The position numbers were made by a program, and so were the translations under genes. Positions 7,681 through 27,957 of a stretch of DNA of 63,631 bases are shown in pieces. Source of the stretch: a virus. The notes beneath the pieces were generated by a model. The model searched no databases, was not told where the DNA came from, and was given only the letters and a program-made list of their open reading frames with translations. Position 1 is the stretch's first letter; the number at the start of each line of letters is the position of its first letter. The stretch lies in IMG/VR virus record IMGVR_UViG_3300048088_000081, positions 1 to 63,631 of that record, one strand, 5' to 3'.

Positions 7681-8091
7681 TCAAAGGTTGGCGTAGCGCC
7701 CTGCGTGTGGGTTGCGTATTGAGTAACCAGCTAACGACCTAACGTGCAATTGAGTGCGGCCGTGCCCACTATTGGCGTCAAAAACCAACGCTGTCCCCGG
7801 ACCAACTACGCTCCTTATCACCATGACATGGTGGGCTCTCACCGCGACCATGCCCGGCGCCGGAGATGCCGATGGAAACTTGAACCAAGACGCCGCCAAC
7901 CACAAATCCCGAATCGGTTTACCGAACACCTCGATAGCAGCGCCACAGCCGCAGAACTCTCGTGCCGGGCAACCGCTGGGGTGCGGTAACTGCGTTGCCG
8001 AAGCATCGTGGTAACTTCTCGCATGGTGGGTGCGAGCTTGCGCGCCCGTGCATAGGCAGAGCACAATAATACACACTAGAATGCGGATCAT
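7681..8091 (-). CDS. Exported NlpC/P60- or CHAP-like protein
   Basis: 136 residues from the ATG at 8091, which has GGAGG upstream and shares one base with the previous stop (TAATG). A signal peptide (about residues 1-19, ending AQA) is followed by CGCGAAIEVFG, then LAASWFKF, PAPGMVAVRAHHVMVI and a C-terminal RSLAGYSIRNP. The order Cys...Trp...GxxxVxxHHV is that of small Cys/His amidase-like proteins of Rhizobiales. If active, it would cut peptide stems in the periplasm and help lysis. The catalytic assignment is tentative. Confidence 0.5.
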   Translation of the reverse strand: MIRILVCIIVLCLCTGAQARTHHARSYHDASATQLPHPSGCPAREFCGCGAAIEVFGKPIRDLWLAASWFKFPSASPAPGMVAVRAHHVMVIRSVVGPGTALVFDANSGHGRTQLHVRSLAGYSIRNPHAGRYANL

Positions 8092-8825
8092 TATCCCTCC
8101 GTTGGATGCGCCCCCAAGGTGCCGGCCAAATATCGCTTGCACCAGCCCCCCTCTGCTATCATATCTTGCACACCCTCACAAGCGGGGCCTCCATATTTAG
8201 GGTGAATAAATCGCGCGCATTTTCCACAGTTTTGACCTGTATGCGTGGATTTCTCTTCGTATTTCACCAATTCGTGAGTACGCTTTTCCTTTTGCTCTGC
8301 GACTTTTATCCTTGCAAGGATTTTCGTATCTTGCGGCGGCGCAAGTAACGGTCGCTTGTCGAGTATCGTCGGAGTTTTGATTATCTTTTCAACCGCGTCC
8401 CGCGCTATAAACGGTTTGAACGCATTTTCGACTTCGGCGGGGTCGAAGCCTTTGGATTTATAATAGCGCTCTTCCCAATGTTGAGCGACAAAATGCGCCA
8501 GCGGAAGATACGGCCATCCGAATACGTCTTCTAGAATGACCTCCAGTCTCTCGTGCCGAATGAGCCCCGGCTTAACGTCCAGCCTTCGGTAGTGAACGGG
8601 GATTACGCCGTACGGCCAATTCTTGTACCGTAGGTGCCTGTCCAGGTAAACGACCCATCCACCGATGGAACTGCTGCCGAGTAAAGCGATATCGTGTGAC
8701 GTGTCCAACTTGAAACTACGCGCTAGGCGCTTCTTCACCCTCGGGTCCGCAAGCGCATGGTCGAGTAGAGAGTCTAACTCGGCTTGGCTGAGGTCGTGCT
8801 GGTGCCCCTTATGTCCGACCGACAC
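8091..8825 (-). CDS. Phage protein with C-terminal four-Cys (HiPIP-like) motif
   Basis: 244 residues, GTG start one base after the giant gene. The N-terminal 110 residues include a conserved-looking block (KPGLIRHERLEVILEDVFGW, then AHFVAQHWEE). The C-terminal 40 carry four Cys: CGKC, a third in GPACEGV and a fourth in GGWCKRY. This spacing resembles high-potential iron-sulfur-like domains of phage structural-region proteins, or a zinc knuckle. Located between the polyvalent protein and the lysis genes. No enzymatic activity can be named. Confidence 0.6.
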   Translation of the reverse strand: MSVGHKGHQHDLSQAELDSLLDHALADPRVKKRLARSFKLDTSHDIALLGSSSIGGWVVYLDRHLRYKNWPYGVIPVHYRRLDVKPGLIRHERLEVILEDVFGWPYLPLAHFVAQHWEERYYKSKGFDPAEVENAFKPFIARDAVEKIIKTPTILDKRPLLAPPQDTKILARIKVAEQKEKRTHELVKYEEKSTHTGQNCGKCARFIHPKYGGPACEGVQDMIAEGGWCKRYLAGTLGAHPTEG

Positions 8826-8826
8826 C

Positions 8827-11800
8827 TTATGCGGCTTCCTTGTATCTTACTGGTTTTTTAGTGTTTCCGTCGCGGAGCCATGTTTTGAATTCGTCCATCG
8901 TCATCTCTTTAATATGGCCAAAGCGCTTTCCCGCCAGCCCGTCAGAGAATGCTTCGTGAAAGGCATTGAGGGCAGCAAATCTGGACGGAAATCCAATAAA
9001 GCATTTTGCTTCATCGTACTTACCGGTATCTGCATTCAATTGGTCAATGACATATACATGATGTGACCTAATATAGGGTCCGATATAGCAATCTACGTGA
9101 TCCAAATCTTTGGCCTCAGTTCCCCGAATGTAGCCGTAATGAGCGGGAAGCCGCGAGCGCCATGCCTTGCCGTCTTTACCTACGCCATGTCTATAGGAAC
9201 CCTTAGCATTCTCAATGGAGATATTAAGTCCATGCACATTGATGTGGTCTTTGGAATAATTGCCTGCTTTGGCCTGTGCCGGTGTTGGCTCCGCGATATT
9301 CGACGCCTCGACGCGACCGCCTGCGGCACGCTTGGGAACTTGCTCGCGCGCCATCTTGCGGTATTTCTCTATCTCCGAATTTCGCATGGCGGGATTATTC
9401 TTGTATGCCGTGTCTATGTTAGCGTCCGCAAGCCTGGAGCCAAGTCCGGTTTCCCGCCTGGATTCCCTCTCCTTCATCTTCCCAGAAAAGGCTGCATCGA
9501 AGAGATCGGCCGAAGTCTTAAACCCGTACCCATGTATTGAATTTCTTACTCTGCGCAGGATATTTATCATGCGCTCAAAGAACCTTCGGATTCCATGAGA
9601 TAACCCCGCGCCGGAAGTTCTGTCCCTGGCATATGCCTCAAACGCTATCGCCCTTATTTCGGTGTCGGAAATTTTATCAACCGCATTCTTCTGTCGGTCA
9701 AGCTCCTTTTGGACAATCCTCCTTAGCTCCGGCTCCTCTTTCTTCAAGAGAGCCATTTCCATCGGTGTCGCGAAGTGGTCCTCTACGGCGTGCCAGCTTT
9801 CATGGTACGCTGTGTCAATTTTGTTTGGGAAAATAGGGTCAGCCATGGCGACCTTGATAAGGTTTGCCATTGGAGCGTACACGCCGCCCCATGTGTCTGC
9901 CGACAGATCTCCCCATGACGATTTATTTCCGGCCGATATAATGTCGGGGAATTCCATCTTTACCTTGTCACCGACAATACCTTGAATGATTTTTGCCAAT
10001 TTCACTACGTCGGCTGTTCTGGCAGGAAGAGATTTTCCATCAGCGCGAGCCGACTCGGTCGGGTCGTTTTCCTCCCCGATTTCGTTCAACTCATCCATGG
10101 TGTATAGATCTGGATCCGCCTCTGGCGGCGGCGGAGTATCCGGAGTCTTCATGGAGGCTTCAAGATCGCGTACTTCCTGCTTCAGCCGCTCAATCTCTGG
10201 ACCACCCGTAAATTTGGCTTCAGATTTCTCTTTGGAGTCCTTGAGGAACTTCTTATTTTTGGCAATATCGGACTTTTTATCTTCTATGTCGCCCTCAAAG
10301 CTCTTTAGGACGCTCTCCATGGACTGAACTAATCCGATGGGAGTGTTGGCGCGTATATTTCTGAAATATCCATCCCCGCCACTCAGTTTCATTGTCAGCG
10401 CCGGAGAGTATGTTTTTTGCGTCCCCTGACCGCCACCAAAGGAAGTATATTCCTGCACCTCTGCATTAAGAGGGAAACCTCCGATTTCTCCAACATCGAA
10501 TTTCTTACCCTTATTATCAGCGGTAGAGATTTTCTGGAGGTTCTTGAAGAGCGCATCTGCAAAATCGGCGCGCTTCGTATATGTCTTACCGAGTGTTGTA
10601 GCCTTAAACTTGTCGCCTGTAATATCCTGACGTTTCTTGATGTTATCTTCCAAGCGAACAATATCATCGTTCGCATATTGTATTTTCTTTTCTGCCTCCT
10701 TCTGTCGTCCCTTGATGGCGTAGACTTCGCTCTCGAACGCTGACTGTCTACGCTGGGCCTTTTCCAGATCCTGCCGCAACTCAGTTAGTTGAATGAGTCG
10801 CGGGTCATTTGTGGTAATAGCAGAGGCTTGCTCGTATTGGCTGGCCTCCCCGAGGTCGTCCATCTCTACGAGATTCGGGTCACCTTCAAAGAAATCCTGA
10901 ATGAACTTAGCCTTTCGCCCCATCATCTTCCACATAGAGGAGTCGTAAGTACCATTGGTGGCATAATCGTGTATTTCGATTTCAGGATTCATATTACCCT
11001 GGCGGAGAGCGCGGCCAATTCTCTGCTCATCGTCTGACGGATACCAAAGCGGGTCTAGGTTGTGGATAGCATAGAGGCGCTTCTGGGCGTTCACTCCGGT
11101 TGCCATCTTGGCGGTAGAGCCAATCAGGAAGCGAACCTTGCCTTCGTTCATGTCGTTGAAAAGCTTCTGCTTATCCGTATGGGACTTATAATCCGCAATA
11201 TTGGCTATCTGGTCTCTCGGAACACCCCTTCGAACCAATTCCGCTCGGATATAATCCGGCACAGAGAACCCCCTCCCACCAGACAGACCTAGATTGGCGA
11301 AAATCATCTGTGTGGCCGGACCTGTAGAGGTTGGCTTTTCGGAATACATCATGATTGGTTCGCCGCTATTCGAACGGCTCGGCACTACGGAATGGAAGTC
11401 CTTTTTAGTGGTTTGCTCGTAAATGCTGTGGGCGTTGTTTACGAGCAGGTCTAGCTTGGAAGGAACATTGGATTTGTAGGTATTATCAACCAACCTCATA
11501 TCGATGGCGGCGTGTCTACCGTCATTGATAACGCTGAGCATTATATCGTCACCCTTCTTGGGCGGCCCTCTTCGTCTCTTTATGGCTTCCATTCTCTGGG
11601 CGAGTTGTGCCTGATATGCAGTCAATGCCTCAGACTTATCGGCCTGATTCAACCTGCGTCCACCCTTGATGGTAGGTCTGGTAACGTATTGCCCAAGCTG
11701 TTTTGAGGTGACAACGTCCATCACCTGACGCACCATGGAGGAGAGAGTCGGCACGTTTACGAACTTGGAGAACCTTGTAACCGGTTTGTATCCTCCAGCG

Positions 11801-14800
11801 GCGTCTTGCTCTAATTCTTCCTTGGTGTCTCCAAACGAACCGGCCCAGGCGTCGAACTTGTCGAGCCCCATTTCCTTCAGGGTGCCCTCCTGCAAATACC
11901 GACTGAGAGTAAACAACTCTGCCATGGTATTTGTAACTGGAGTGCCGGAAGCAAGAACTATGCTTCTTCCGGGATTCTGCTGGTCGAGGTAGCGTGTCTT
12001 AACGTAGAGGTCCCAAGACATCTTGGAGCCAACCGGATTTATTCCCTTCACGTTAGACATCTGAGTGGCGAAATCGAGTTTCCTAAAATTATGCGCCTCG
12101 TCTATTGACAGATGGTCAATGCCCATTTCTTCAAACGTAAAGACTTGGTCTTGGTTCTTTGACTTCTTTCCCGAAAGCCTTTGCTCCAGCCTCTCAATCT
12201 GTTTTTCTATCCGAGAGCGAGTAAGTTTGTTCTCGCGGTCGTTAGGAACATTGTTAAGCATCTCGCGATATTCTTCTACGGCATCTTCAATGATTTTATC
12301 GGAAAACTTATCGGAAATTGGAATCTTCTTGAAGGCAGAATGAGTGATAATAACAGCGTCGAGGTCGTCATTCGCTACGTTGGCAACAAATTGCTTCCTG
12401 CGGTCAGTGTGGAATTGTCGCTCATCGGCAACCGCAATCTTCGCTGTTGGATACTGTTCGTAGAATTCCTTCGCAAATTGCGCCAACATATGGTTGGGCA
12501 CGACAATCATTGGTTTACGTACGAGACCAAGTCGGCGCATTTCCATAACGGCGCCAATCATAGCTGAGGTCTTACCTGCGCCTACAGCGTGCGCCATGTA
12601 GGTATTACCACTCTCGATAATTCTGGCAACCACGCGAGTCTGATGAGGTCTCCAACTCCATTCTTTTGATATTCCCGGAGTCGTCAGATAGGAACCATCA
12701 TAAACTCTATCGACGTTCGTGTTGTATCCATCGTTATAAATCCCGGCAAGATTGTCGGACCTGTCAGGGTCCTCCCACACCCAGTTAGCAAACGCTTCCT
12801 TGAGGGCCTTGACTTTCTCCTGAGCGGCCTGGGTTTTGGCCACGTCAAGCATATATTTCGTCTGCCCATCCTCCTGATAGGGCTTCATTATCTTTGGGTT
12901 CTGCCTATTCAGGGCGTCCTGAATCAATAGTGGTGCCCTTCTTTCGTCAATGCCCCAGGTCGATGACGCGGCAATGGAGTAAGTGTCGCCGCTCACAAAC
13001 CACTGTGCTAGGGCAGGGACGTACTTAACCTTGAGGTTATCGAGGCCCAAGTGCTCTGTACCGAACTGTTGGATTACCTTTGGTGGTATCCATGGCATAC
13101 CAAGATATGCTCGAATGCGGGACGGCGGCAACGGGGCTGGCTGTGCGGCTTCTAAGGCTTCCACATTTCTGTTGAATGCCGGATCCTTCTGGGCCATGGC
13201 ACGAGCCATTTCGAGCTTCTGCTTGACGTTTCCGGAAAGATACTGCTCCTTGGTTTGCCATGTATTCTGCGTTCCCGGAACTTGGAAAATCCTATCTCCA
13301 AGGTCCTCGATAACACCCTGTTCTGTCTTGCCTACAAGTTTAGCGACTTCAGGGATGTCCAGTCGGCCCAACTTATTTAGAACATTCAAGACAGCGTCAT
13401 TGGTTGATTTAATCTCTGGAGGTTTTTCCTTTGCAATGATGTTATCGGTGAAAATCAGCGATTTTTTTGCATTCCCGGTCGATTTGTCATACTTCTCGAT
13501 GGCGCTTAGACGGTAGGATTCCGGGTCATCCATGAACGGATCGAGATTTGGACGCTTGACAATTGCAATGTCGTCCATTTCTTCCGGATTGAACGTGCCT
13601 TCGTCCCACGTCTTTCCTGCGGCCTTTGCTGCCTCCCTCGCAGTTTCACGAGCATTCGCAATCTGCGAAGTGGTTGCGCTCTTCATCGTAATAGAGCCGT
13701 CCGGATTCATTATCGGTCGTTTAGTCTTCATCTCCGTTGGGTCGAACGACCCTTCGTCAAACGGGTCTCCTAAATAGCGAGCCTCCTCGCGAGCTTCATC
13801 CCTTTCGCCTTCAGCTTGGATTTTAGTTGGACGCTTGAATGTGGTATTTTCCTTGTTGATAGGCCCGTGTTTAGCAACAAAGGAATCATAAGACTTATTG
13901 AGTTCTGCCCTCGCCTTTACGGCGCCTTCAATGTCACCTGATAGGTCAGCAACATAGACATCCCGCAGTGAGTTCTTAATCGGTATCAGCCCCCTTATTA
14001 TCTCCATACCTTCGCTGGTTTTACCTCCAGTCACTCCCTTGCCGCGTCCCGCTACGGGCACTCCTGCACCGTTGTCCATCTGGTACAGAACGCCATTAGG
14101 ACCGATGTAGAAGCTACCATCCTTCTTTTCGGTCGAGGCGAAGTCTGCTATTGGGTTGGAATCTGTAGCTCTGACATTAAAAACACCCTCCGGGAGACGT
14201 GCGATGGCTTCCGCGAGGTCTCTCGTGAAGTCCTGTCCTGGACGGGCGTGGACGCCATAACGACCCTTATAGAGCTTATCGAACCATCCTTGGTCTCCCA
14301 GCACCATTTCAGGATGGTCTACGAAATACTTGTTATTGTTCCCCGTTTGGATATTCCCGTCAGAATCTGGAAGATCAACGGGAGTTACTTCGGTCCAAGA
14401 CCTATCTCCCGGAGACTCATCGGCGTGTCTCTTGCGAAGGAAAATAATATCCGTGGTAACGTCAGTTCCAGCGTTCTTTCTAAATGCGTTACTGGGAAGC
14501 CTAATAGCCCCAACTAGATCCGCTCGGTCGGCAAGATACTGCCTTGCAGATGGATCCGCTTTGTTCATGGTCCCGGCAGAGGAAATGAACGCTACGACGC
14601 CACCCGGCTTAACTCCATCGAGAGACTTGGCAAAGAAATAGTCGTGCAGAAGCATATTCTTATCGGCATACTTCGGGTCAGCCTTAATTACGGTATCCGC
14701 GAATGGTGGATTGCCGATAGCTAGGTCAAAAGTGTTCTCTGGGAGTGGAGTCCTTGTAAAGTCTCCTTGTGATACGCCCCATTTCGGATATAGGAGTTTG

Positions 14801-17784
14801 GCGATTCTTGCCGTGGTCTTGTCGTATTCCAGACCGATATAGTGAGAATTAGACGCTACATCCCCCGGCATCATACCGGCGAAGTTCCCCACGCCCATTC
14901 CCGGTTCGTAAATCTGTCCGCCCTTGAACCCCATCCTCTGGACGGCTTCCCACATGGCCCTAACAACTGGCTCTGCGGTGTAGTGAGCATATTGGATTGA
15001 GCGTCTAGCAGTGGCGTATTCGTCATCCGGAAGAAGTTCTTTCAGCCTAGCGCCGATAACCTCGTAGCCTTTGCCGAAATTACCTCCGGAGTCCGGGAAC
15101 GCTCCCTTGATTCCTCCCCACCCAACGTACTTAGCAAGTTCCTGCTGTTCCTCTCTGGTGGCGAGTCTCGCTTCGTTCTCGATTTTAAGCGCAAGTTCAA
15201 TAGAGCGAACGTTGTCTCTAGCTTTCTGCGCCCAACCCCTCTCTTCCATGAGGGTACCCGGCTCGATAACGTGGTTTACTCCCGTGACGTTAGCGGCCGG
15301 TCCGAGAACAGGGACTTCATCTCGTCCTGGCTCGCTGATGTCTCCTGGTTCTGGGGGAAGTCCAACATCTGCGCCCGCACCACCTCCTCCCACGTCCTCT
15401 GCTCGTTCAGGTCCGCTTGGGGGTTCGACTTCGCCAACGCTGCTAGTTTCTTGTGGGCTTCCTCCGCCTTCGCCTGGGCCACCTTCTGCAATTGGCCGCT
15501 CTTCGTTAGGCGCCGGAACTCCCTCGGGTCCTGGTCCCTCAGTGCTTGGAGGTACATTGACTTGTACGTCTCCTGTAGAAGGTTGTATGTCATTTGCGGC
15601 CTCTTCTGCGGTCTTATACTCAGGATGAGCATTACGGTCTACGCTGATGCCCATGCCGTTACGACTCGGCACCATGGCGACCGGTTCCGTGTGGCGTATG
15701 CCGTTTTCGACATATGAGCGGACACCACGGGCGTCTTCGTATAGAGTTTGTCCGTCAGAGTTTTGGCCTATGGCGGTTAATCCCGGAGGTGTAGGCGTTT
15801 CCTCAACCGGGGTTAGCCCGGTCGTATCGAGCGGGGGCTTTTCAGGGTTTGCAAGCTCCTGCGCCGCTGCCCTGGCGCGGTCCAGTGTGGGGTAAATCTT
15901 AACCCCGGCAGTCTGTTGTGCGTCAGTGTCACGGAGGACTACGTTATATCGCTTCCCATCTGAATTCTTGACAATTAGGACTTCCGTGCCGTTCTCGCCG
16001 GGGAATCTTTCAATGATGGGTTTGTTAGGGGGGCGAAATGCTATCCCAGTTGAAGCCGTCTGTCCTACATTTATACGCTCCATATTGGTTTTAGAGGACG
16101 TTGACCCCAAAATACTAAGTTGGCGGCCATCTTCTGTAACGGCGTCTGGTGCCAATGACGCCCTGTCCAGCAATTCAGACAACCCCTTGGTATCAAGACC
16201 AAGTTCTTTCTTTAGTTGAGCGTGCCAAGCCACCTCACCGCCCTTGGCGTCTATTTTCTTTACAGCATCATAAAGTCTATCAACATCTGAGTTTCTTTCT
16301 CTTCCTACCGCACTTTCCGGTTCCTTGCCACCTTCGCCAGCGCTCGGCCCGTTCTCGCCGCCTTCACCAACCGGCTCTTGCGTGCCGGGTCCTTCTCCTG
16401 GTTGGCTCTCTGCAACAGGCGGTAGGCCAGTGTCGCGTGCTCCTTGGATGTCAGCAGCATGATTTTCCTCTAAATATGCTTGTTCGATGGCGTCTATTGG
16501 GTCTTTTTCTTGTCCGGTTGCGAGTAATTTTGCGGCGCCCTCAAGAGAAGTGGCGTCGATTTGCTCGGGGCCAATCCCTTCCTGCGCAGCAGTGTCCAGA
16601 ACTTCCTGAGCCGCCGACTCAATTGCAGGCTTTGATGCCTCTGGGATGTTCTCACGGGGCTTCTCTTCCATTCCCTCTGGGATTGGCTCTACAGCCGCAG
16701 GGATAGGCTCTTCTTTGGGAGTCTCGTCGGTCAAACCAAGCCGCTTACGCAGATTGTCGGCCAGTTCTCGGTCGGAAAGCTTGGGTGGGAGAGCCGGAGG
16801 TGGCTGTGGAGACGGTTCCGGCTCGGGCGGAGCCTCGGGGGGCGCTGGCTCTGGAGGCTCACCAGCGGCCTCTGTAGGAGGCGGGAGTAGCCTTTGGGTG
16901 GTATCATCTGCCGCTGCTTTCTGGGCGGCCTTATTACGGATAAATTCGTCTATTTCGGACCGGGTCTTGGCACCATTGATTTTGGCGTCAACCTCATCGG
17001 CTTGACGCATAAAGGAATCGGCCTCGGGGCCAATTCCCGTTCTCTGGGATATTGGCTTCTGGAGGGGAGCCAAAGGCCCAACCACGGCACCACTGAGAAG
17101 GTTCCCGATGATTCGCTGTACGTCGGGAGAATATCCATCTTGCGGATCGTATAGGTCCTGAGCAATCTGGGAGGCAAGGAATTGCTGGGCCTCGCCAACC
17201 GAGGCAAACGCTACACCGGATTGGATAGCCTGCTGGAGCTTTGCCGTTCCCCATGCGGTCCAGGTGGGACCGGCGGCTTCGATGGGACGGAGAATAGCGT
17301 GGAGGGGAATGGCACCTAAGGCGGTATTGACTACGGCCCCACGGATAAATGCCTGATGGGCGACCTCGGGGGACGCACCGTGCTTTTCGGCGTCTTCGGC
17401 CTGCTCTTCGCCGCCGACTATGCCGAAATAGGCAGCGCCACCCAGGACTCCGCCAGCCACAACGGCGGGCGCGGCGGAAACGAGAGAGCCGATGCCCTTC
17501 CCTACAGTTGGGATAATGCCTTGCTGGTCTGCCTCACTTAGGGGAACGTCCGTGTCAGTACCGGCTGAAAGCCGCGTACCAGCCTGAGTTAGACCTTCCG
17601 AATCAGTAAGCCTACCGAGGCCACGCAGGCCAGCGCCGGCAGTATCTTGGATAGTGCGCGCGACATTAGCGGCGCCAACCTCATACCACGGTCGGCCGGA
17701 GGGGATATCTGGAGGAGCGTTTTCGTCAACCGGAATGAGACCGCTTAGGTCAAAATCCGGAGGAGTGTTAGGATCTTGGTCCAT
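8827..17784 (-). CDS. Giant polyvalent protein: ejection-like N terminus, N6-adenine MTase, SNF2 helicase, metallopeptidase, InPase-like domain (DarB-like)
   Basis: 2985 residues. Residues 1-260 are Gly/Ala-rich with hydrophobic stretches as in internal virion proteins; about 300-490 is Pro/Glu/Gly linker. Near 860-890 is a TREEQ...YVGWGG lead-in, then an adenine methyltransferase with motif I EPGMGVGNF (about 959) and catalytic NPPF (about 1025). An SNF2-type helicase follows: Walker A HAVGAGKTS (about 1732), DEAH (about 1895), ASGTPV, and motif VI QRIGRALRQG (about 2252). A coiled coil separates it from a metallopeptidase motif HESWH (about 2661). The last 140 residues have YGYI and DHVDCYIGP, the pyrophosphatase-like domain of polyvalent proteins. 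P1 DarB (methylase plus helicase) is packaged and shields incoming DNA from type I restriction. The 1-base overlap with the 590-aa gene implies co-translation with ejection proteins. Domain calls are by motif; virion location is inferred. Confidence 0.9.
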   Translation of the reverse strand: MDQDPNTPPDFDLSGLIPVDENAPPDIPSGRPWYEVGAANVARTIQDTAGAGLRGLGRLTDSEGLTQAGTRLSAGTDTDVPLSEADQQGIIPTVGKGIGSLVSAAPAVVAGGVLGGAAYFGIVGGEEQAEDAEKHGASPEVAHQAFIRGAVVNTALGAIPLHAILRPIEAAGPTWTAWGTAKLQQAIQSGVAFASVGEAQQFLASQIAQDLYDPQDGYSPDVQRIIGNLLSGAVVGPLAPLQKPISQRTGIGPEADSFMRQADEVDAKINGAKTRSEIDEFIRNKAAQKAAADDTTQRLLPPPTEAAGEPPEPAPPEAPPEPEPSPQPPPALPPKLSDRELADNLRKRLGLTDETPKEEPIPAAVEPIPEGMEEKPRENIPEASKPAIESAAQEVLDTAAQEGIGPEQIDATSLEGAAKLLATGQEKDPIDAIEQAYLEENHAADIQGARDTGLPPVAESQPGEGPGTQEPVGEGGENGPSAGEGGKEPESAVGRERNSDVDRLYDAVKKIDAKGGEVAWHAQLKKELGLDTKGLSELLDRASLAPDAVTEDGRQLSILGSTSSKTNMERINVGQTASTGIAFRPPNKPIIERFPGENGTEVLIVKNSDGKRYNVVLRDTDAQQTAGVKIYPTLDRARAAAQELANPEKPPLDTTGLTPVEETPTPPGLTAIGQNSDGQTLYEDARGVRSYVENGIRHTEPVAMVPSRNGMGISVDRNAHPEYKTAEEAANDIQPSTGDVQVNVPPSTEGPGPEGVPAPNEERPIAEGGPGEGGGSPQETSSVGEVEPPSGPERAEDVGGGGAGADVGLPPEPGDISEPGRDEVPVLGPAANVTGVNHVIEPGTLMEERGWAQKARDNVRSIELALKIENEARLATREEQQELAKYVGWGGIKGAFPDSGGNFGKGYEVIGARLKELLPDDEYATARRSIQYAHYTAEPVVRAMWEAVQRMGFKGGQIYEPGMGVGNFAGMMPGDVASNSHYIGLEYDKTTARIAKLLYPKWGVSQGDFTRTPLPENTFDLAIGNPPFADTVIKADPKYADKNMLLHDYFFAKSLDGVKPGGVVAFISSAGTMNKADPSARQYLADRADLVGAIRLPSNAFRKNAGTDVTTDIIFLRKRHADESPGDRSWTEVTPVDLPDSDGNIQTGNNNKYFVDHPEMVLGDQGWFDKLYKGRYGVHARPGQDFTRDLAEAIARLPEGVFNVRATDSNPIADFASTEKKDGSFYIGPNGVLYQMDNGAGVPVAGRGKGVTGGKTSEGMEIIRGLIPIKNSLRDVYVADLSGDIEGAVKARAELNKSYDSFVAKHGPINKENTTFKRPTKIQAEGERDEAREEARYLGDPFDEGSFDPTEMKTKRPIMNPDGSITMKSATTSQIANARETAREAAKAAGKTWDEGTFNPEEMDDIAIVKRPNLDPFMDDPESYRLSAIEKYDKSTGNAKKSLIFTDNIIAKEKPPEIKSTNDAVLNVLNKLGRLDIPEVAKLVGKTEQGVIEDLGDRIFQVPGTQNTWQTKEQYLSGNVKQKLEMARAMAQKDPAFNRNVEALEAAQPAPLPPSRIRAYLGMPWIPPKVIQQFGTEHLGLDNLKVKYVPALAQWFVSGDTYSIAASSTWGIDERRAPLLIQDALNRQNPKIMKPYQEDGQTKYMLDVAKTQAAQEKVKALKEAFANWVWEDPDRSDNLAGIYNDGYNTNVDRVYDGSYLTTPGISKEWSWRPHQTRVVARIIESGNTYMAHAVGAGKTSAMIGAVMEMRRLGLVRKPMIVVPNHMLAQFAKEFYEQYPTAKIAVADERQFHTDRRKQFVANVANDDLDAVIITHSAFKKIPISDKFSDKIIEDAVEEYREMLNNVPNDRENKLTRSRIEKQIERLEQRLSGKKSKNQDQVFTFEEMGIDHLSIDEAHNFRKLDFATQMSNVKGINPVGSKMSWDLYVKTRYLDQQNPGRSIVLASGTPVTNTMAELFTLSRYLQEGTLKEMGLDKFDAWAGSFGDTKEELEQDAAGGYKPVTRFSKFVNVPTLSSMVRQVMDVVTSKQLGQYVTRPTIKGGRRLNQADKSEALTAYQAQLAQRMEAIKRRRGPPKKGDDIMLSVINDGRHAAIDMRLVDNTYKSNVPSKLDLLVNNAHSIYEQTTKKDFHSVVPSRSNSGEPIMMYSEKPTSTGPATQMIFANLGLSGGRGFSVPDYIRAELVRRGVPRDQIANIADYKSHTDKQKLFNDMNEGKVRFLIGSTAKMATGVNAQKRLYAIHNLDPLWYPSDDEQRIGRALRQGNMNPEIEIHDYATNGTYDSSMWKMMGRKAKFIQDFFEGDPNLVEMDDLGEASQYEQASAITTNDPRLIQLTELRQDLEKAQRRQSAFESEVYAIKGRQKEAEKKIQYANDDIVRLEDNIKKRQDITGDKFKATTLGKTYTKRADFADALFKNLQKISTADNKGKKFDVGEIGGFPLNAEVQEYTSFGGGQGTQKTYSPALTMKLSGGDGYFRNIRANTPIGLVQSMESVLKSFEGDIEDKKSDIAKNKKFLKDSKEKSEAKFTGGPEIERLKQEVRDLEASMKTPDTPPPPEADPDLYTMDELNEIGEENDPTESARADGKSLPARTADVVKLAKIIQGIVGDKVKMEFPDIISAGNKSSWGDLSADTWGGVYAPMANLIKVAMADPIFPNKIDTAYHESWHAVEDHFATPMEMALLKKEEPELRRIVQKELDRQKNAVDKISDTEIRAIAFEAYARDRTSGAGLSHGIRRFFERMINILRRVRNSIHGYGFKTSADLFDAAFSGKMKERESRRETGLGSRLADANIDTAYKNNPAMRNSEIEKYRKMAREQVPKRAAGGRVEASNIAEPTPAQAKAGNYSKDHINVHGLNISIENAKGSYRHGVGKDGKAWRSRLPAHYGYIRGTEAKDLDHVDCYIGPYIRSHHVYVIDQLNADTGKYDEAKCFIGFPSRFAALNAFHEAFSDGLAGKRFGHIKEMTMDEFKTWLRDGNTKKPVRYKEAA

Positions 17785-19556
17785 TACTTACGGTATAGCT
17801 TTCCGTTGACCATAATCATAGACCCTGGAGGTGCGCTGTTCTTGAACCAGTCGATATGGGCTTGAGAGGTAGCCTGGAATGGCGTAGCTTTGGTTCCGGT
17901 TCCCGGCATTCCTGATGTCTGTTGTGGTGGACTTTGCGGTTGGTTTTGACCAAGATTTTCTGATGCTCTAAGTGCAGCGGTCCCAACTGTCCCCTTCAGT
18001 GTGGACTTACCGAGGACACCGGGACTTGGTTTCCCGAAAGCCGTCCCGAGTGCCCCAACAGGTTGCTGTGTAAGGGTGGCCTGCCCAAGCGGACTATCCG
18101 CCCTGATACTATCGAGAAGGCCGTTGATTCTGCCTTGCATTGCCGCCTTGGCACCCATTAAATTTGCCGCACCAACGGCAGCCAATCCAGCCTCCCCTAG
18201 ATGCCCAAGACCAAGGTGTTGAGCAATATACAGAACAGCCCCTGTAGACACAACTCCAGTGGTAGCAAGTCGGCTTAGAAATCTCATGGTATTACGTGGA
18301 ACATTACCTGCTGCCATATCGTAAATCATGGACTGCTGGTCGGGGGTAAATGATGCCAATCTTTTGGGGTTTACAAGAATACCCTTCATTTGCTGGCGGA
18401 AAGTATTTTCAAAGTTCGCACCAGTCCCAGATGTAGCTGCGTTCAGCCCTCCCTTTCTGGCGGCCCACTCTACCTGTTGAGCCCTTTTCATGGCGGCCCA
18501 GTCACCGCGAGCACTATTTGCCAAGTCGGCAGTCTGCGCCGCCTGGGATTGAAATCCCGGCATAGCATTAGTAGGATCAGCGAGGAATTTATCTATCTGC
18601 TTTATAGCTAAGTCAGCGGCAGATGCTTCGGCAGTAGGTTTCCCAGTCTGACTCCACATATCGTCACGTAATGTACTTAGGGACTGACGCTTGGCTTCCA
18701 AATCGGAGAAAGTCGGCTGTGTTGTCTGCTGGGCAACGTCTTCCAACTCTCCGACTCGTCGGAACGTACCGCCGGACAGGTCTTCTCTATAGCCTCTTGG
18801 CGGCCCTCTTAAGGTTTGGTCTATATCGTCACTGAGTTGCGATATTTTACTTCTGTCATAGGGGACATTTATACTTCTGGCTGCCGCGTATTTACCGTTT
18901 GCAGAGTCTTGGAGATTGGCTGTTGTTATCTTCTTCCTCGCCATATTTGCTAGAGGATTAGTCGTCATTCCAGCGAGTGTACCGCCAACTAGGCTACCTC
19001 CGAATTCACCCCAACCCTCGAAAGGAGTATCTTTGAAGAGTTCATCGTCTAGCTCGTGGCCCGCTTCTTGACCAACGGCAGAACCAACGACATTGGCAGC
19101 CCTGCCGACATTGGCTACAGCCCCAGTCCCGCCACCTAGAAGAGACAGTGGATTCGCCCCCATCCTACCAATATTAGCCGCTATATTCTGTCCAGGAGTC
19201 TGAGGGTCAGCACGTACCCCGGTCGCGTTTACAAGCTCATCGCCGTATTGCAATTCTGGGCGTTCTCGGTGCAGATTTCCCGATGCAAGACTGGCGATGT
19301 CCTTCGGTAGTCCGACCAAGGCTGAGCCAACGTCTCCGGCAGTCCTCTGGGCTTGCTCAAGGAAACCAAGTCCGCCCTGCTTTATGGCATCTCCAGTCCC
19401 CTCCGGGAGGTACGGAGATATGTATTTGTCCCATGCGCTATTCGGTTCTTGCGCCTGCGCATCAGGCGGCGGCATATCAAATATACTTTTAGTTTGAGCC
19501 TGAGCCGGAGCATTATCCGCCCCAGGAGGATTCATGTCGAAAATGCTTTCAACCAT
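17784..19556 (-). CDS. Putative internal virion/ejection protein
   Basis: 590 residues. The N terminus repeats a short motif (SIFDMNPP, then SIFDMPPP), followed by a Gly/Ala-rich region with amphipathic segments (about 60-200), a helical middle (about 215-400) and one strongly hydrophobic segment near 435-470. It lacks enzyme motifs. Composition, length and place between the 984-aa and 2985-aa proteins fit the middle member of a podovirus ejection trio (compare P22 gp7/gp16/gp20 or T7 gp14-16), proteins that form a conduit for DNA. Both junctions are TAATG overlaps. Role inferred. Confidence 0.6.
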   Translation of the reverse strand: MVESIFDMNPPGADNAPAQAQTKSIFDMPPPDAQAQEPNSAWDKYISPYLPEGTGDAIKQGGLGFLEQAQRTAGDVGSALVGLPKDIASLASGNLHRERPELQYGDELVNATGVRADPQTPGQNIAANIGRMGANPLSLLGGGTGAVANVGRAANVVGSAVGQEAGHELDDELFKDTPFEGWGEFGGSLVGGTLAGMTTNPLANMARKKITTANLQDSANGKYAAARSINVPYDRSKISQLSDDIDQTLRGPPRGYREDLSGGTFRRVGELEDVAQQTTQPTFSDLEAKRQSLSTLRDDMWSQTGKPTAEASAADLAIKQIDKFLADPTNAMPGFQSQAAQTADLANSARGDWAAMKRAQQVEWAARKGGLNAATSGTGANFENTFRQQMKGILVNPKRLASFTPDQQSMIYDMAAGNVPRNTMRFLSRLATTGVVSTGAVLYIAQHLGLGHLGEAGLAAVGAANLMGAKAAMQGRINGLLDSIRADSPLGQATLTQQPVGALGTAFGKPSPGVLGKSTLKGTVGTAALRASENLGQNQPQSPPQQTSGMPGTGTKATPFQATSQAHIDWFKNSAPPGSMIMVNGKLYRK

Positions 19557-22510
19557 TACATGGTCCCGTAAAGGAAGTAGTTACCGAGACCCTTATAATG
19601 AGCATTGAAATTCCTCAGTCCGATATCGTATCTCTGTCTGGCTGCATTCATTGCCGCAGCATCTTGAGACTGCTCAGCCGAAATAAATGCATCGCGGGCT
19701 TGCCTTATTTCATTGACGTGGGTACCAATATCCTGCTGCTGTTGCGGGTTTAGCTGGCTGTAAAGGGCCTTGGCAACATACTTCTGTGGCGGGTTCTGTT
19801 CGTTGAACGCATCCCACCAGCCCGTGGCTATGCCACCGTTTTTGTTCTTGTAGTCATCGAAGAACGCCTTCTGGTCTCGAACCATGTCCGACGAAGCTTT
19901 CATCGAAGCGATAATGGCCCGAGAGGTATCAATGGGAAGATTAAAGCTCGCCATGGCATTCATAGATGCCTGGATTATTGGCTGCGCCTCTCTCGAACTC
20001 AGTCCGGATTGACCTATCTGAGCGAAACCGGAGGTAACAGAATCCTTGGCAAGAACGTTAATTGCGGAAACAACCTCTTGCGGGGCTTTGTTACCCGGAA
20101 CCGACGCCCAAGCATTCAGTAATTTGAGACGGTCATCCCCAAGAGGACCCGGAGTCATCAGGATTTTCGCAGCCTGAGAATTTGGATTTGATTTTATGTA
20201 ACTCTCAATAGTGTCAAGAGAGTGACTCATCTCATTCGACTTGAATTGTATCGTATCTGTGGCGTCTACCTTCTTGTTTAGAGCGTTACCCTCTTGGGTG
20301 GACTGTCTCATGGCTGCCGTATGATATTGAGGTAGCTGATACTGTGCCAGCATAGCGGGGTCGCTTTGCGCCTTCGGAGGCCCGGAAATAATCATATCAC
20401 CTGGATTCGCGGTCTCAAGATGCGCCCCCATTGGCGCTATTGAACTGTTGACCTTGGGGGCGCCGGGAGTTTCCGGAAGCGGAGCAATATCTGACGGATT
20501 TTTACGCGGCGGAAATGGGAGATGTGTTCTTGGGTCAAGGAACTGACCTTGGTTCTGCGGATCTGGAACGCCGTATTCAGGCCTCAGCGTATTCGGATCT
20601 GTATCTATCGTCAGTGGCTTCCCGTAGAATTCCTGAGTTCTGAGGTTCAGATCATCCTGCGCCCGCTTTGCCGCCTGCTCAAGCCTCTGCGACTCAATGC
20701 CGATAGTTGCCTTCTTCTCTGCCTCTGAGATGTTCTGTGCCTGTTCGGCGGAATATTCTCTTAACCCGCCAAGACCGCCTTCAGCCGCTGCTTGTAGCGC
20801 CCATGGTGACCGGCTGGCTGCCATACCTAATCCGGCAGCGATAATCGCCCCCCACGGGGACGTTGTCGGATGTTCGTAGGTTGTCGGAGTTGAACTTGGT
20901 ACGTTGGTGTCGCCATACGATGGAGACCCGGCATACCCAAGAGCACCTGACGACGGCGCAACTCCTGCGGTCGGGTGTGACGTTCCTTGCGTGATTTCCG
21001 GTGGTAAAACATCGCCATTTGCTGTATATCGTCTATCAGCGTAAGTGGCGTTATTGTCTGGCTCGTATGCTACTCCGGCACCGTACCCACCCGGCCCTGC
21101 ATTCAAAACGATATCCGGAGCATTGATACTTCCATCGGGGATTACATCTGGTGCAACGCCCTGTCTATAAGACGTAGTTGGCACAGGATGAGACATAGGC
21201 TGCGGGAAGTAGTCAGAATCTGACGGAGGAGAATATTGTGCATCTCCAAGCCAATCAGGGATAGTCGCAAGACCTTCCGCAGTCATGATTGGAGCGCCAC
21301 CGTCAGCAAATCCGATACGGCCGCCCCTTGCGGCATGGCCTATACCAAGGGAGTCTCCATAAGAAGTATCAATTGGTGCATATACACCTTGCCCCTGACC
21401 AGCCTGTACCCACTGGTCTCCGGAAGCCGTTCCATCAAGATTATAACCGTTTGAAAAGTTTCTTATCCCGCCGGCCAAGTTACCTAATGACGCGCCAGAG
21501 CCGGCGTTAAGGCCATTTCCCTGTCCGCCCTGATTTCCCGAACCCGGAGGTGGCGGAGCGCCGCGCCCATCAGCAATCGCCATGGCCTCTGGGATGTACC
21601 CAACACCTCCGCTGTACGGAGTGCCGCCCATGGCAAAACCCTCGATGCGACCACCTCGATTAGCGCCGGGATGCGTGTATGCTCCGTACGCGCCAGCACC
21701 AGCAATACCAAGTCCGGCTATCTGCTGGAAAAGTGTAGGTCCAGGCTGCGTCGTGGTGGAGATCCCGCCAAGTTGGCTGCCGACGCCGGTCCCAATCCCC
21801 GCAAGCCATTGAGTCTGCTGATACGGGAACGCCTGCTGATTGAGAAACTGTTGATACGCCGCTTGATCCTGCGCGCTGGCCACGCCGTATTGAAGATTGC
21901 CGGCGCCGACTTGCGCATTCGCCCCTGTGAGGGCAGCGTTTTGACCGGAGACACCAAGATTCCCGAGTGAATATGCGCCTTGCGCCTTGGCCTGTTGCTC
22001 CGCAAGCGCAGTATTTACTCCGGTTTGATAACCTTGACTCTCTAGTCCGGCGATGACGGGAGCCTGAGCAAGATTTTGCTGTCCTGACGTAATGGCCTCA
22101 GCGATACCCTCGCGGTTACCACCGAGGGCATTCTGCGCAATCGCGTTGCCTTTTACCTGCTGAAGTTGCTGCTGGTTTTGGTTATTGAATTCAGCCTGTG
22201 TCGCATTGACGACATTCTGCGTCCATGGATTGACGTACTGCTGAATGTCGGCCGATGTAAGAGGGGTTGCTGCCGATGTAGCAAGACCAGCGGCATTCTG
22301 AATGTAAGGCTGGGCATAGTTTGCATTCTGGTTTATATTGGATATGCCAAGCGTCTGCTGGGCGTTTACTTCTGGAACAAGTTGACCAGTGTACGGATTG
22401 TACGGAGACTGAGCAACCTGTTGGGCACGACTTAGGATGTCAGTGTACGCACTAAGCGCGGCAGGGTTAGGAGATGATGTTGCTGTGGAGGTTTGATTCT
22501 TGGACCCCAT
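19556..22510 (-). CDS. Putative internal virion/ejection protein with GGR motifs
   Basis: 984 residues. Residues 1-300 are Gln/Asn/Ala/Tyr-rich and probably helical (AQQTLGISNINQNANYAQ), as in phage internal proteins. Around 275-420 are two GGR motifs (NRGGRIEGFAMGG and ARGGRIGFADGG) in Gly/Pro/Tyr-rich sequence. The C-terminal 400 residues are helical and hydrophilic. The first gene of the putative ejection trio; its stop overlaps the next start (TAATG). No muramidase motif seen. Alternative: a large scaffold-like virion protein. Confidence 0.6.
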   Translation of the reverse strand: MGSKNQTSTATSSPNPAALSAYTDILSRAQQVAQSPYNPYTGQLVPEVNAQQTLGISNINQNANYAQPYIQNAAGLATSAATPLTSADIQQYVNPWTQNVVNATQAEFNNQNQQQLQQVKGNAIAQNALGGNREGIAEAITSGQQNLAQAPVIAGLESQGYQTGVNTALAEQQAKAQGAYSLGNLGVSGQNAALTGANAQVGAGNLQYGVASAQDQAAYQQFLNQQAFPYQQTQWLAGIGTGVGSQLGGISTTTQPGPTLFQQIAGLGIAGAGAYGAYTHPGANRGGRIEGFAMGGTPYSGGVGYIPEAMAIADGRGAPPPPGSGNQGGQGNGLNAGSGASLGNLAGGIRNFSNGYNLDGTASGDQWVQAGQGQGVYAPIDTSYGDSLGIGHAARGGRIGFADGGAPIMTAEGLATIPDWLGDAQYSPPSDSDYFPQPMSHPVPTTSYRQGVAPDVIPDGSINAPDIVLNAGPGGYGAGVAYEPDNNATYADRRYTANGDVLPPEITQGTSHPTAGVAPSSGALGYAGSPSYGDTNVPSSTPTTYEHPTTSPWGAIIAAGLGMAASRSPWALQAAAEGGLGGLREYSAEQAQNISEAEKKATIGIESQRLEQAAKRAQDDLNLRTQEFYGKPLTIDTDPNTLRPEYGVPDPQNQGQFLDPRTHLPFPPRKNPSDIAPLPETPGAPKVNSSIAPMGAHLETANPGDMIISGPPKAQSDPAMLAQYQLPQYHTAAMRQSTQEGNALNKKVDATDTIQFKSNEMSHSLDTIESYIKSNPNSQAAKILMTPGPLGDDRLKLLNAWASVPGNKAPQEVVSAINVLAKDSVTSGFAQIGQSGLSSREAQPIIQASMNAMASFNLPIDTSRAIIASMKASSDMVRDQKAFFDDYKNKNGGIATGWWDAFNEQNPPQKYVAKALYSQLNPQQQQDIGTHVNEIRQARDAFISAEQSQDAAAMNAARQRYDIGLRNFNAHYKGLGNYFLYGTM

Positions 22511-22517: not shown

Positions 22518-23204
22518 TTACGCCGCCTGTCCGTTCAATTGTTTTGACTCATGATGCCCTATCATCCAAAACTCACGTTCCTTCTCGACACCACGGAGCA
22601 CTTCTGCTACTTCCCTTAAGAGAGGAAGTAGTTTGCCCTGCACCGTATCCTTGGATATCCTTTGGTTAGAATATGCGTCAACAAACGCCGCAAGCCTCTT
22701 GCGCAAATCTGTATGATTCTCTACCGGTTCATCGTCAAGACGCGGCTTGAACTTCGCATTATGAACGAAGAACGCACCAGTAGGATTACCAAGTCTCCTG
22801 CGGTAGAGCCGAACCTTGCCGGCTAGAGCTTTCTCCGTAATGATACCGGTGAAAAGCGGGATTCCCATACGGTCTGAGCACGATTTGCCGAACTCGATTA
22901 GCGCTTCCGCATTACGTGATTTACGATACTCCGGGGCAACGTAGTTCCAAAGCTCTACAAGATGCCAGTCGTCCGTATAGTGGGTGTCTGAAATGGATAG
23001 GCACGTTGATGCTTCAAGACTCCCCTTAGGCCCAATCACGCCGACAATGTTGCCTTTGGCCTCGTAGCACTTGCGGATCGTGTCGCGCACCTTGTTTTCG
23101 TTGAGGCTAAACAGGCCATTTTCTTCCCACAAACGTCGGCACATTCTGAGAACATCTTCTTCATCTTCTTTGGTCGCGATGCGAACCTCAGGTAGGTCTG
23201 TCAA
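22518..23204 (-). CDS. GNAT-like acetyltransferase of the virion gene block
   Basis: 228 residues. The first 150 follow the GNAT layout: an N-terminal strand and helix (RIATKEDEEDVLRMCRRL), central strands (NIVGVIGPKGSLEAS), LVELWNYVAPEYRKSRNAEALIEF in the acetyl-CoA binding position, then GIPLFTGIIT. Residues 160-228 are a helical extension. GNAT genes of this kind recur among head-tail genes of podophages, where their substrate is unknown. The Arg/Gln-x-x-Gly-x-Gly/Ala loop is imperfect (RKSRNA), so activity is uncertain. Its start overlaps the preceding gene (ATGA). Confidence 0.65.
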   Translation of the reverse strand: MTDLPEVRIATKEDEEDVLRMCRRLWEENGLFSLNENKVRDTIRKCYEAKGNIVGVIGPKGSLEASTCLSISDTHYTDDWHLVELWNYVAPEYRKSRNAEALIEFGKSCSDRMGIPLFTGIITEKALAGKVRLYRRRLGNPTGAFFVHNAKFKPRLDDEPVENHTDLRKRLAAFVDAYSNQRISKDTVQGKLLPLLREVAEVLRGVEKEREFWMIGHHESKQLNGQAA

Positions 23205-24198: not shown

Positions 24199-24939
24199 TC
24201 ACTTTTTCGCTGGCGGAGGCAAGCCCTTAAGTGTAGAAATATGCTTCTTTCGTGTCCTGAGTATCCACCTATCTAGCTCATCGTGCCCCAAATTCATTAT
24301 TTTCTTTAATGGCGGATTCCTCAGACCTAAATCGCGAGCACGCTCTAATCCTACCTTGTAAACGGAAATAGGGCCTACCAGGAATTCTCCCCCGGCTACG
24401 TTGCATTCCACAGGCTCCCCTATCCTGTGATCCTCACCCCTAGAGCCGCCCTCAGAAGCAATCCCGCCAAGCCCAAACTTCGGCAATGGAGGTGCTTTCG
24501 GAGCGCCCATGCCACGCCCCATCTTCATGGTTGGACCGCTTCCGTAAGGGCCGCCATGACTAAAAAGGCTATTAGCCACCGCAAAACCGTGCATGGTGTT
24601 ACCCTGCCCAAGGGCGCTAACATGGTCGGCGGGCAGGACATGGCTTGAAGATGGTAGAGACGTTGAGATGTGGTCAGTTCTCCCGGCAACCGCCGATAGT
24701 ATTGGTCCTGGCCTCATCATATTCCTGGCTTCTTGGCGTTCCTGCCAATTCGTTAGCGGATTGCCTCCGAATCCGGGTACACCTCCGTACGCATAGCCGG
24801 CAACGCCTCCATCGGCACGGCTTTCCCTCTGCTCCCTATACGCTGCCGCGAGCGCCTGCTTCTGTGGGTGTCCAGCGTGCATCATCTCCGAAACATTCCG
24901 TGAGAATATCGCTGGGGTTACACCCTTATGTAGCGGCAT
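24199..24939 (-). CDS. Late phage protein with GGV/ADGG motifs
   Basis: 246 residues. The first 40 (KGVTPAIFSRNVSEMMHAG, then QKQALAAAYRE) match a short conserved N-terminal block of many alphaproteobacterial phage proteins. It is followed by SRADGGVAGYAYGG, a Gly/Pro/Met-rich middle and a conserved C terminus (GEPVECNVAGGEFLVGP, then GHDELDRWILRTRKKHI, ending LKGLPPPAKK). I regard it as a virion or assembly protein of unknown activity. Its start shares one base with the preceding stop (TAATG). Confidence 0.65.
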   Translation of the reverse strand: MPLHKGVTPAIFSRNVSEMMHAGHPQKQALAAAYREQRESRADGGVAGYAYGGVPGFGGNPLTNWQERQEARNMMRPGPILSAVAGRTDHISTSLPSSSHVLPADHVSALGQGNTMHGFAVANSLFSHGGPYGSGPTMKMGRGMGAPKAPPLPKFGLGGIASEGGSRGEDHRIGEPVECNVAGGEFLVGPISVYKVGLERARDLGLRNPPLKKIMNLGHDELDRWILRTRKKHISTLKGLPPPAKK

Positions 24940-25526: not shown

Positions 25527-25915
25527 GACGGCGTAAAGATCGAATAGCTGAAGGTTTCAGTTCCTGCCGCCGCCGCACCGCTAGCTGTAGCTACCGTAAA
25601 ACTAACCCCCGGCGTAAGAACGGAGACATATGGCGACTTTGCGCTACCAACCAAGGTCCCGGCAGATGCATTGGTGGGGCTCGGGGTTACTATACTATTC
25701 GCCTTCACGGCCGGCTGCGCCACTGTAGTCGTCGCTGCGGCGGCAAACGTGAAACTCCCGGTGACAGTCCTGCCGGTGAAAGCAGCAACCCATGCACTAA
25801 GTTGCTGGACGATACCGCGAAGCTGGGTAACAACGTCCTGTGCTCCGGCTCCAGGAGGATTGCTGTACGGATTTATCGGGGAACTACCCGGTACGCTGTT
25901 GTATTGGTCTGTCAT
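25523..25915 (-). CDS. Small virion protein with a beta-rich C-terminal module
   Basis: 130 residues. The N-terminal half has a short coil ([20 protein letters not shown]), the C-terminal half is Thr/Ala/Ser-rich beta structure: [36 protein letters not shown] and [13 protein letters not shown]. This module recurs at the ends of tail or fibre proteins in related phages. Overlaps the large tail protein upstream (ATGA). Probably a small fibre or collar component. Confidence 0.6.
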
Positions 25916-27957
25916 CGCCTACCTGTTGCAGAAAACCGGAACTTGATACTACCGAGGCGCCAAAAGCTTCCGATATCCTGAGAGGAAATTGTCACGCTCA
26001 TGAACCTTCCACGGAAACGAACCGGTATAAATTTAGTAGCCGAAGTTACCGTATAAGGTCCATAAACTCTAGGCGTGTCACCTTCGTAATTGAATACGTT
26101 GAATGATATCTGTATTTGAGCGCTTGCACCAGTATTTGGAAAAGTTTGCCATTTGAAGTTAGGTATTACCTGATCTACGAATGAGAAGTCTTCCCCCTCC
26201 TGGAGATAGAAGAATCCTGTAGTGGTGCTCGATACAAGAGGCTGACCGTCAGCATCTGGCGTCGTTTCTTGGAGATATATTATCCCATTTGGGGATGCGG
26301 AAATCGGCATTCCCAATGCTGATTGGTCAATCCATGCCGACCTCTGGAGCGGCCCGTAATCCCACGGAGCCCCAGGTTCAGTGATGTTGAATTTCACATA
26401 CGAGTCGCATTCACCATTAGAACTCGCGAGACTTGGGTACTCCCATCCAGCCTCGTTAAATGGCGTATTCGGCATTGCCCGAACGTTTTGCAGAAAATTT
26501 GTATTGAGATTCTGGAACACGGCGTCCCATACCGGACAAGGAATCACAGAAACACCATTACCGTTGTAGACATAGAAATTCGTCAGCCCCATCCAGAATA
26601 CGCTTCCACGAAGTTGTAATGCCCCATGTGCCGAAACCAAACCAGACCCGGCACCAATCTTAGTAAACCCATATACATTCGGTGGGCCTACGTAATTCAT
26701 TGCCCACAAATCAAGGTCAGTCCATATCAAATTAACATTCGATACCGCAATTCCTCCCATGATTTGGGAGCCAATCGGTATCGTGAAATTACCAGCTTGA
26801 TTCGTCGCGCTGGCGGCCCAGTCGAAGAAATCACCTGAAGAAGACCACTGCACGAGCATCGGCTGTTTCTGATATCCGATGCCTTGATGTATCGAAGACC
26901 CCCATGCAATGAGAATTTGCTGTGACATCGAAACGAAGATGCCATTATTGAATATTGGTCCGGAGCTTATAAGGGAGGCATTCTGGAATCCTCCGGTCGG
27001 GTCCCAGTAGTAAATTCCTCCGCCGCGAGGACACGCCAGAAGTATCTGTCCCCAGTTGTCTTGCGTCCAATCCGTCGCAGTTATCGGAGTGCCGGTTTGG
27101 TCAGACGAGGTTGTCCCAGTTCCGTAACCGCCAAGACCATAACCGCCAAGCCCGTAACCCGATCCAACCGGTGGAGGGCCAAGAGCAATGTAATAAACTA
27201 ACTCCACATTACCGCCATTCATGGAGAACGACGAAGATGCAGTAGCCTGAGTAGACGCCGAGATTGAGAAATGATTTGAGTCAGCTACGCTTACTATGTC
27301 GTATGCGCCTTGTATCGTCACACCATTACCGGTGGTCGGTATCTCAAATACTACCGTATCACCGACTGAACGACCGTGGGCCGTCAATGCTACCGAAACA
27401 ACAGAACTGCCATTCGTTGTAGTGAATACCGGAATTGCGGAAGTGCTGGTTGTGGCATTCGCATTACTAGGAGCCGTTATCTGATAGGAATGCGTTCCAG
27501 TAATATTCGTTATTGGGTATAGCCCATCAAGAATAAGTCCGCCAATAGAAACCGGAACATTAAAGAATACAGAGTCGTTTACGGTGACATTCGATATATT
27601 TGCATCAGTTATGCCAACCGTTGGAGTGTTAATTGTGGTAGAAAAATTCGCCGCCGGAGCAAAATCTGATACAAGAATCTGAGGTGTTATGTTCTGTTTT
27701 ATGTTATTGGTTATTACATCAAGCTCTGTAGTAGTCCCAACCGATAAGTGACCTGTCGAATTTAGATCCTCCCACCCATGAAGGTCTCTTGGTACTCCGC
27801 CGACCGAGAATGGGTAGTATTTCTCCCAACCACCGTACTTTTGGACCAGACCATCTCGGAAACGAACGAGAGAGCTTGACGAATATCCTGCGCGCAGGAG
27901 CGTAGGAGTCCTCTCGACGTTTACGCCGGGCTGGAGAGTAACGCTGCCGAAAGGCAT
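25912..27957 (-). CDS. Tail hub/nozzle or DNA-stabilisation protein (P22 gp10/T7 gp12-like)
   Basis: 681 residues. The N terminus ([20 protein letters not shown], then [16 protein letters not shown]) and the later [16 protein letters not shown] and [15 protein letters not shown] are typical of the large beta-propeller-like tail protein that closes the short tail of podoviruses. Residues about 85-260 are an inserted Thr/Ser/Val-rich Ig-like region; a [13 protein letters not shown] repeat lies near 270-283. It would bind the adaptor ring and plug or extend the tail. Assignment by resemblance and position between adaptor and ejection genes. Confidence 0.72.

Follow-up and report, generated by a model that had tools for sequence, protein, structure and literature searches.

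The window analyzed here, i.e., the whole stretch of 63,631 nucleotides representing the IMG/VR record IMGVR_UViG_3300048088_000081, contains on its minus strand a single open reading frame (ORF) of 2985 codons (positions 8827 to 17784), which starts with ATG and is free of internal stops. The gene is preceded by a cassette whose order (28933-29631, 25912-27957, 24199-24939, the acetyltransferase-like gene and the 984-aa gene) is conserved. The components of this region, from the highest to the lowest coordinates, are the following:

28933-29631, cassette gene upstream of the 25912-27957 gene, recognized by the conserved cassette order
25912-27957, minus strand, virion structural (stabilization-type) protein (PHROG 3287, E=3e-58; homologs with up to 78% identity)
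24199-24939, minus strand, conserved cassette protein, recognized by cassette synteny
22518-23204, minus strand, acetyltransferase-like protein and conserved cassette member, whose MW202675 homolog is annotated as 'putative acetyltransferase'
19556-22510, minus strand, 984-aa ejection-type protein, the conserved first gene upstream of a variable slot
17784-19556, minus strand, 590-aa protein with a stop/start overlap, whose C-terminal 45 aa or so recur in the products of genes that immediately precede DarB/InPase genes
8827-17784, minus strand, DarB-like polyvalent protein of 2985 aa, assigned by Pfam, PHROG and identity to DarB proteins
8091-8825, minus strand, 244-aa protein downstream of the 2985-aa gene, with a homolog in L099 directly downstream of an InPase-tailed protein

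The one-base overlaps that the original prediction had described between the 984-aa, 590-aa and 2985-aa genes are evident both in the coordinates and in the stop/start letters: the last A of the TAA of the 590-aa ORF is the A of the ATG of the 2985-aa gene, and the 984-aa and 590-aa ORFs overlap in the same manner. Since the A of a stop is thus twice shared with the ATG of the next gene, translational coupling of the three genes is suggested. The proposed setting next to ejection-type genes was also supported, as the 984-aa gene matches a PHROG 'DNA ejection protein' (E=3.5e-10) and its MW202675 homolog is annotated as 'internal virion protein D'. A Pfam search of the protein encoded by 22518-23204 returned no match.

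The 590-aa protein has longer homologs in the same slot in the related loci L258, L297, L306 and L314. A tail of some 45 aa, PFQATSQAHIDWFKNSAPPGSMIMVNGKLYRK (window 17784-17916), is conserved at its C terminus. In L029 and L156, proteins that otherwise do not resemble it, and whose genes immediately precede DarB or InPase genes, terminate in this tail as well, which possibly represents a virion-targeting signal. At the start of the 2985-aa gene (17784) a motif, (LD/FD)xSGL(T/I)P(L/V)D, is found that recurs at the N termini of the DarB-type proteins of L029 and L258, and that is repeated in some of these putatively delivered proteins. The 244-aa protein exhibits a Cys-rich C-terminal end (CGKC...C...C) that weakly resembles HiPIP iron-sulfur proteins (E=0.024, below the cut-off), and L100 and L101 show a comparable Cys pattern immediately ahead of their InPase.

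The 2985-aa protein itself can be divided into the following segments:

16990-17607, minus strand, N-terminal module of about residues 60-265, rich in Gly/Ala and probably helical, with phmmer matches to other DarB-like proteins
13855-15297, minus strand, LPD36-type region and N6-adenine methyltransferase (residues 830-1310), with EPGMGVGNF, NPPF and Pfam matches
10465-13566, minus strand, SWI2/SNF2-type translocase (residues 1407-2440), with GAGKT, DEAH, SGTP, QRIGRALRQG and Pfam matches
9415-9990, minus strand, zincin-like metallopeptidase (residues 2599-2790), with H2661, E2662, H2665 and E2709
9292-9333, minus strand, linker RAAGGRVEASNI (residues about 2818-2831), common to InPase tails of non-DarB cassette proteins
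8875-9291, minus strand, InPase (PF18823; residues 2832-2970), supported by Pfam (E=5e-48), tree and AU test

All motifs quoted in the original prediction were located in the translation, i.e., EPGMGVGNF (residue 960) and NPPF (1025) of the methylase, HAVGAGKTS (1732), DEAH (1895) and QRIGRALRQG (2254) of the translocase, which also possesses SGTP, HESWH (2661) of the metallopeptidase, and DLDHVD(CYIGP) (2893) of the InPase; the catalytic motifs of these four domains are all intact. Pfam returned InPase (E=5e-48, residues 2836-2970), SNF2 (1.8e-6), Helicase_C (5.5e-6), Eco57I methylase (9e-6) and DEAD, the domain scores lying well beyond chance expectation, while the HESWH metallopeptidase region was unmatched by Pfam. 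This latter region nevertheless displays the HExxH and downstream Glu typical of polyvalent zincin-like metallopeptidases (MPTases), with H2661, E2662, H2665 and E2709 being invariant across 11-12 aligned relatives; its AF2 model was poor (pLDDT 61), and a PDB fold search with that model gave no significant match. The InPase retains D2893/D2895/D2898, D2914, D2924 and K2927 (an acidic DxDxxD triad, a later D, and DExK), and, in addition to the PF18823 match, its acidic metal ligand positions are invariant in nine sequences. We take the triad, the later D and the DExK positions to be equivalent to the ligands of classical type I pyrophosphatases.

The Gly/Ala-rich character noted for the N terminus is reflected by a G+A content of 37% in residues 101-200. 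phmmer matches of this module to L022 (1.7e-20), L034 (7.7e-10), L024 (1.3e-8), L018 (7.8e-6) and L026 (9.8e-6) indicate a genuine homologous unit that is also N-terminal in certain other DarB-like proteins. AF2 predicted an all-helical, poor model (pLDDT 51), and no homology was found between the module and the neighboring ejection-type genes.

The predicted homology to DarB and polyvalent proteins was supported by profile and pairwise searches alike. PHROG 10089, 'DarB-like antirestriction', matches residues 567-2550 with E=0, while a phage collection search returned 570 matching records, the top matches being DarB-like proteins of Burkholderia Lessievirus phages with 40-42% identity in the core (42% over the core for BcepIL02 DarB). 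Over the methylase and the two halves of the helicase, P1 DarB aligns collinearly with 22-30% identity. The protein thus combines an N6-adenine methylase fused to a SWI2/SNF2 ATPase with homology to P1 DarB, as is typical of DarB-like proteins, and several unrelated enzymatic domains in one phage protein within a delivery-gene setting, as described for polyvalent proteins (Iyer 2017). By sequence it belongs to the known DarB-like polyvalent class and does not represent a new kind of protein. When the full 2985-aa sequence was used to scan viral and genome contigs, the scans returned InPase relatives only, or no match. The original prediction had regarded as unusual both the presence of the full domain set in one gene and the fusion to an ejection-like N terminus. 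Neither view was supported: all four enzyme domains had already been described for the polyvalent class (PMC5512222), and in numerous phages full-length DarB-like proteins contain these domains together with further ones (PMC5512222, PMC6630229). The earlier interpretation is supported with respect to homology and ejection-type setting, while the real oddity lies in the position and origin of the InPase.

To place the gene in its genomic setting, a cassette census was performed by a scan seeded by the 25912-27957 gene and unbiased for DarB or InPase (collection scans list the best 80 loci), in which loci were counted if they extended at least 2 kb past a complete 984-aa homolog (n=33 among the matches listed). 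Across these loci, at least 33 in number, the variable slot following the 984-aa homolog holds an InPase in eight cases, a DarB core in one and a 590-aa homolog in four, and in two more of the 33 listed loci the window's N-terminal module is present in an ORF that leaves the locus end. A 984-aa homolog precedes DarB in L018, L024 and L026. In L258 (78% identity in the 25912-27957 gene), the contig stops after a 984-aa homolog, a 590-aa homolog and a DarB-type N terminus in this order; the latter matches with 58% over 77 residues of partly low-complexity sequence. It could be argued from this setting that the protein is mainly a part of the ejection machine, whose SNF2 motor pulls or organizes DNA at entry, with the methylase being secondary or host-directed; its position directly after the 984-aa ejection-type and 590-aa genes, its Gly/Ala-rich N-terminal module and the existence of cassettes with other proteins in the slot would be compatible with such a role. 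We nonetheless deem this reading unlikely, as the methylase-SNF2 dyad is a conserved part of the family that is present in phages with unrelated virion genes, and as most of the listed cassette loci are without a recognizable DarB in the slot, so that DarB is not needed for ejection as such.

Among the closest known systems are BcepIL02 gp70, JC1 gp69, POI1126 gp30 and Atu_ph08 gp21 of the Bcep22/PBC5-type podoviruses, whose methylase-SNF2 core is homologous (34-42% identity) and whose genes likewise close the block of virion genes, one family member being virion-associated. These proteins differ, however, in length (4,500-4,900 aa versus 2985 aa) and in the position of their InPase, which, if present, precedes the methylase. 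In addition, Bcep22 and CSP3 are reported to possess an N-terminal lytic transglycosylase (PMC6630229, PMC10269572), while none was identified by Pfam in the 2985-aa protein. The genes neighboring the latter are unrelated to those of the Bcep22/PBC5-type phages at tblastn sensitivity: no match was obtained at 1e-3 against seven related phage loci (BcepIL02, POI1126 and PEp14 included), and the homologous, syntenic virion genes that characterize Bcep22-like (Lessievirus-type) phages were thus not found. Because the neighboring genes are without Bcep22-type matches, the phage group of this window is distinct from the Bcep22-type phages despite the common DarB core. P1 DarB is smaller (2,255 aa), works together with DarA and other partners, and did not align with the metallopeptidase and InPase regions.

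Taken together, we consider it likely that the gene encodes a virion-packaged, ejected DarB-like anti-restriction protein, to which an InPase was joined from another cassette protein. We infer packaging, ejection, anti-restriction activity and self-cleavage. The N-terminal module and the neighboring genes would form part of the ejection cassette of a tailed phage, and the protein would be delivered with the DNA. The relative JC1 gp69 was represented by 51 unique peptides in purified virions (PMC9144972), although it stems from a different phage group, the neighboring genes here having no detectable homology to Bcep22-type loci. The Dar proteins of P1, likewise found in the virion, confer protection in cis only (PMC12707154, PMC5512222); it counts against the proposed role that P1 anti-restriction requires several partner proteins. 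Following delivery, the SNF2 motor may travel along the incoming duplex and present adenines to the fused N6-methyltransferase, in line with the proposal that DarB-type dyads translocate on and methylate injected DNA (PMC5512222). Alternatively or additionally, the protein may coat the DNA and keep type I-like restriction enzymes from cutting, the cis action of P1 Dar proteins on packaged DNA being possibly one of shielding (PMC12707154). The metallopeptidase probably cleaves the polyprotein into working pieces, as MPTases have been proposed to process polyvalent proteins, and the terminal pyrophosphatase-like domain probably hydrolyzes pyrophosphate or a host-derived nucleotide signal, the InPase having been proposed to clear PPi or to attack nucleotides made upon infection (PMC5512222). 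A modification or host-takeover enzyme that is made in the infected cell, and not carried in the virion, could also employ an active methylase after its synthesis; such a role is improbable given that the gene closes a virion-gene cassette, to which one-base overlaps connect it, and that JC1 gp69 is a virion protein.

What distinguishes this likely virion-delivered DarB-like protein is its layout. Polyvalent proteins with an InPase and a zincin MPTase have been reported with the same enzymatic domains, predicted co-delivery with DNA and MPTase cleavage (Iyer et al. 2017, PMC5512222). Wherever an InPase and the core were found in one frame, the InPase precedes the methylase in all other cases (about three dozen checked, among the matches listed), including the viral contig sets, all seven cases from bacterial genome contigs, POI1126, Atu_ph08, Mwe-JY07 and BKO1-TP3. 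The order methylase-SNF2-MPTase-InPase with a terminal InPase after the core was observed in the 2985-aa protein alone, and no close second relative with the identical complete architecture was found, among the matches listed (best 80 loci). The protein is also short: relatives with InPase and core in one frame usually comprise 3,600-5,800 residues, and complete DarB-like frames of the viral set (n=60) have a median of 4626 residues, with only three being shorter than 3662. Its closest syntenic relative, L018 (IMGVR_UViG_3300017777_001079), has the same upstream genes and 57% identity over residues 829-2773, yet encodes 3,991 aa with the InPase at 426-560 and ART-PolyVal and LPD38 domains at the C-terminal end. 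This ART/LPD38 tail is absent from the 2985-aa protein, and tblastn with relatives returned no match in the window outside the 2985-aa gene. The novelty resides in the layout, i.e., the InPase at the extreme C terminus and the loss of the ART/LPD38 tail, which makes the protein a novel arrangement of the known DarB-like kind, built by domain swapping. The annotation of L012 (Sinorhizobium phage PBC5) splits the DarB gene into gp22 and gp21, which are separated by a gap; its InPase belongs to the first of these pieces.

The closest counterparts of the terminal InPase are C-terminal tails of non-DarB proteins of 830-1,390 aa without methylase or helicase, which occupy the same cassette position in L098, L099, L100 and L101. 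Identity across InPase and RGGRV linker amounts to 63% for L098, 61% for L099, 56% for L101 and 51% (over a longer stretch) for L100, as compared to 49% between the InPases of the window and L018. The shared RAAGGRV linker occurs as RAAGGRVEASNI in L100, RAAGGRVDAGNI in L101, RARGGRVNPANI in L099 and RAHGGRVNAANI in L098, while it is not present ahead of those DarB N-terminal InPases that were examined. In the InPase tree the window groups with L098 (support 94/92), and descent from the DarB N-terminal InPase of L018 was rejected by the AU test (p-AU 0.006). In L099, the 984-aa homolog, the InPase-tailed protein and a homolog of the 8091-8825 gene directly adjoin one another in this order. On these sequence grounds, the InPase and its RAAGGRVEASNI linker derive from a different protein family encoded in the same cassette position. 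The simplest account would be a recombination event within the slot, by which the DarB gene came to carry an InPase tail: the DarB gene and the tail of another cassette protein would have been joined, with the ART/LPD38 tail and any pre-methylase InPase being lost. An assembly artifact that joined a DarB gene to the end of another phage's InPase-tailed gene is very improbable, since, even though the metallopeptidase-to-linker junction is present in this record alone among the matches listed, and the record is an IMG/VR uncultured-virus-collection contig classed as linear without end repeats and not an independently checked isolate, the reading frame is continuous through the junction, the independent contig L099 also has the InPase tail followed by the 244-aa gene, and L258 independently possesses the 984-aa, 590-aa and DarB-type N-terminal order.

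We also considered whether an L099-type InPase gene had been split by DarB, the 590-aa gene being its former N-terminal portion. This was not supported, as no homology links the 590-aa gene to the N-terminal part of L099: hhalign assigned probabilities of less than 1%, and jackhmmer identified only the shared 45-aa tail.

The RGGRV-InPase tail is carried here by the DarB protein, whereas in some phages its carrier is a cassette protein of 900-1,300 aa. It is conceivable, albeit doubtful, that this tail forms a mobile module, transferred as cargo among consecutive proteins of the ejection cassette, and that after delivery it hydrolyzes pyrophosphate or a nucleotide signal in concert with anti-restriction. 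InPase tails are also found on portals of Pseudomonas phages, as seen in a PDB chain named 'gp19 Portal' (765 residues) with an InPase match at 635-762. The chain probably comes from the Pa193 phage group, and the Pa193 map lacks density for portal residues 529-765 (PMC11042391); the portal InPase tail and the missing density would agree with a flexible InPase inside the head. In the cassette relatives L106 (9560-11080) and L126 (9833-12049), an InPase is fused to a homolog of the 24199-24939 gene, which may represent a further position of the same module.

Giant DarB-like proteins are thus modular, with the same putatively delivered enzyme domain being located at either protein end or on another cassette protein. 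If the InPase tail is indeed a portable delivered enzyme, it would point to what these phages deliver to the host during the first minutes, while its small carrier proteins would be easier to assay than a 3,000-residue DarB.

Elsewhere in the window, the minus-strand gene at 38883-41183 encodes a protein of 766 aa that matches a Sortilin-Vps10-like beta-propeller (E=2.4e-10), a feature unusual among phage tail-region proteins.
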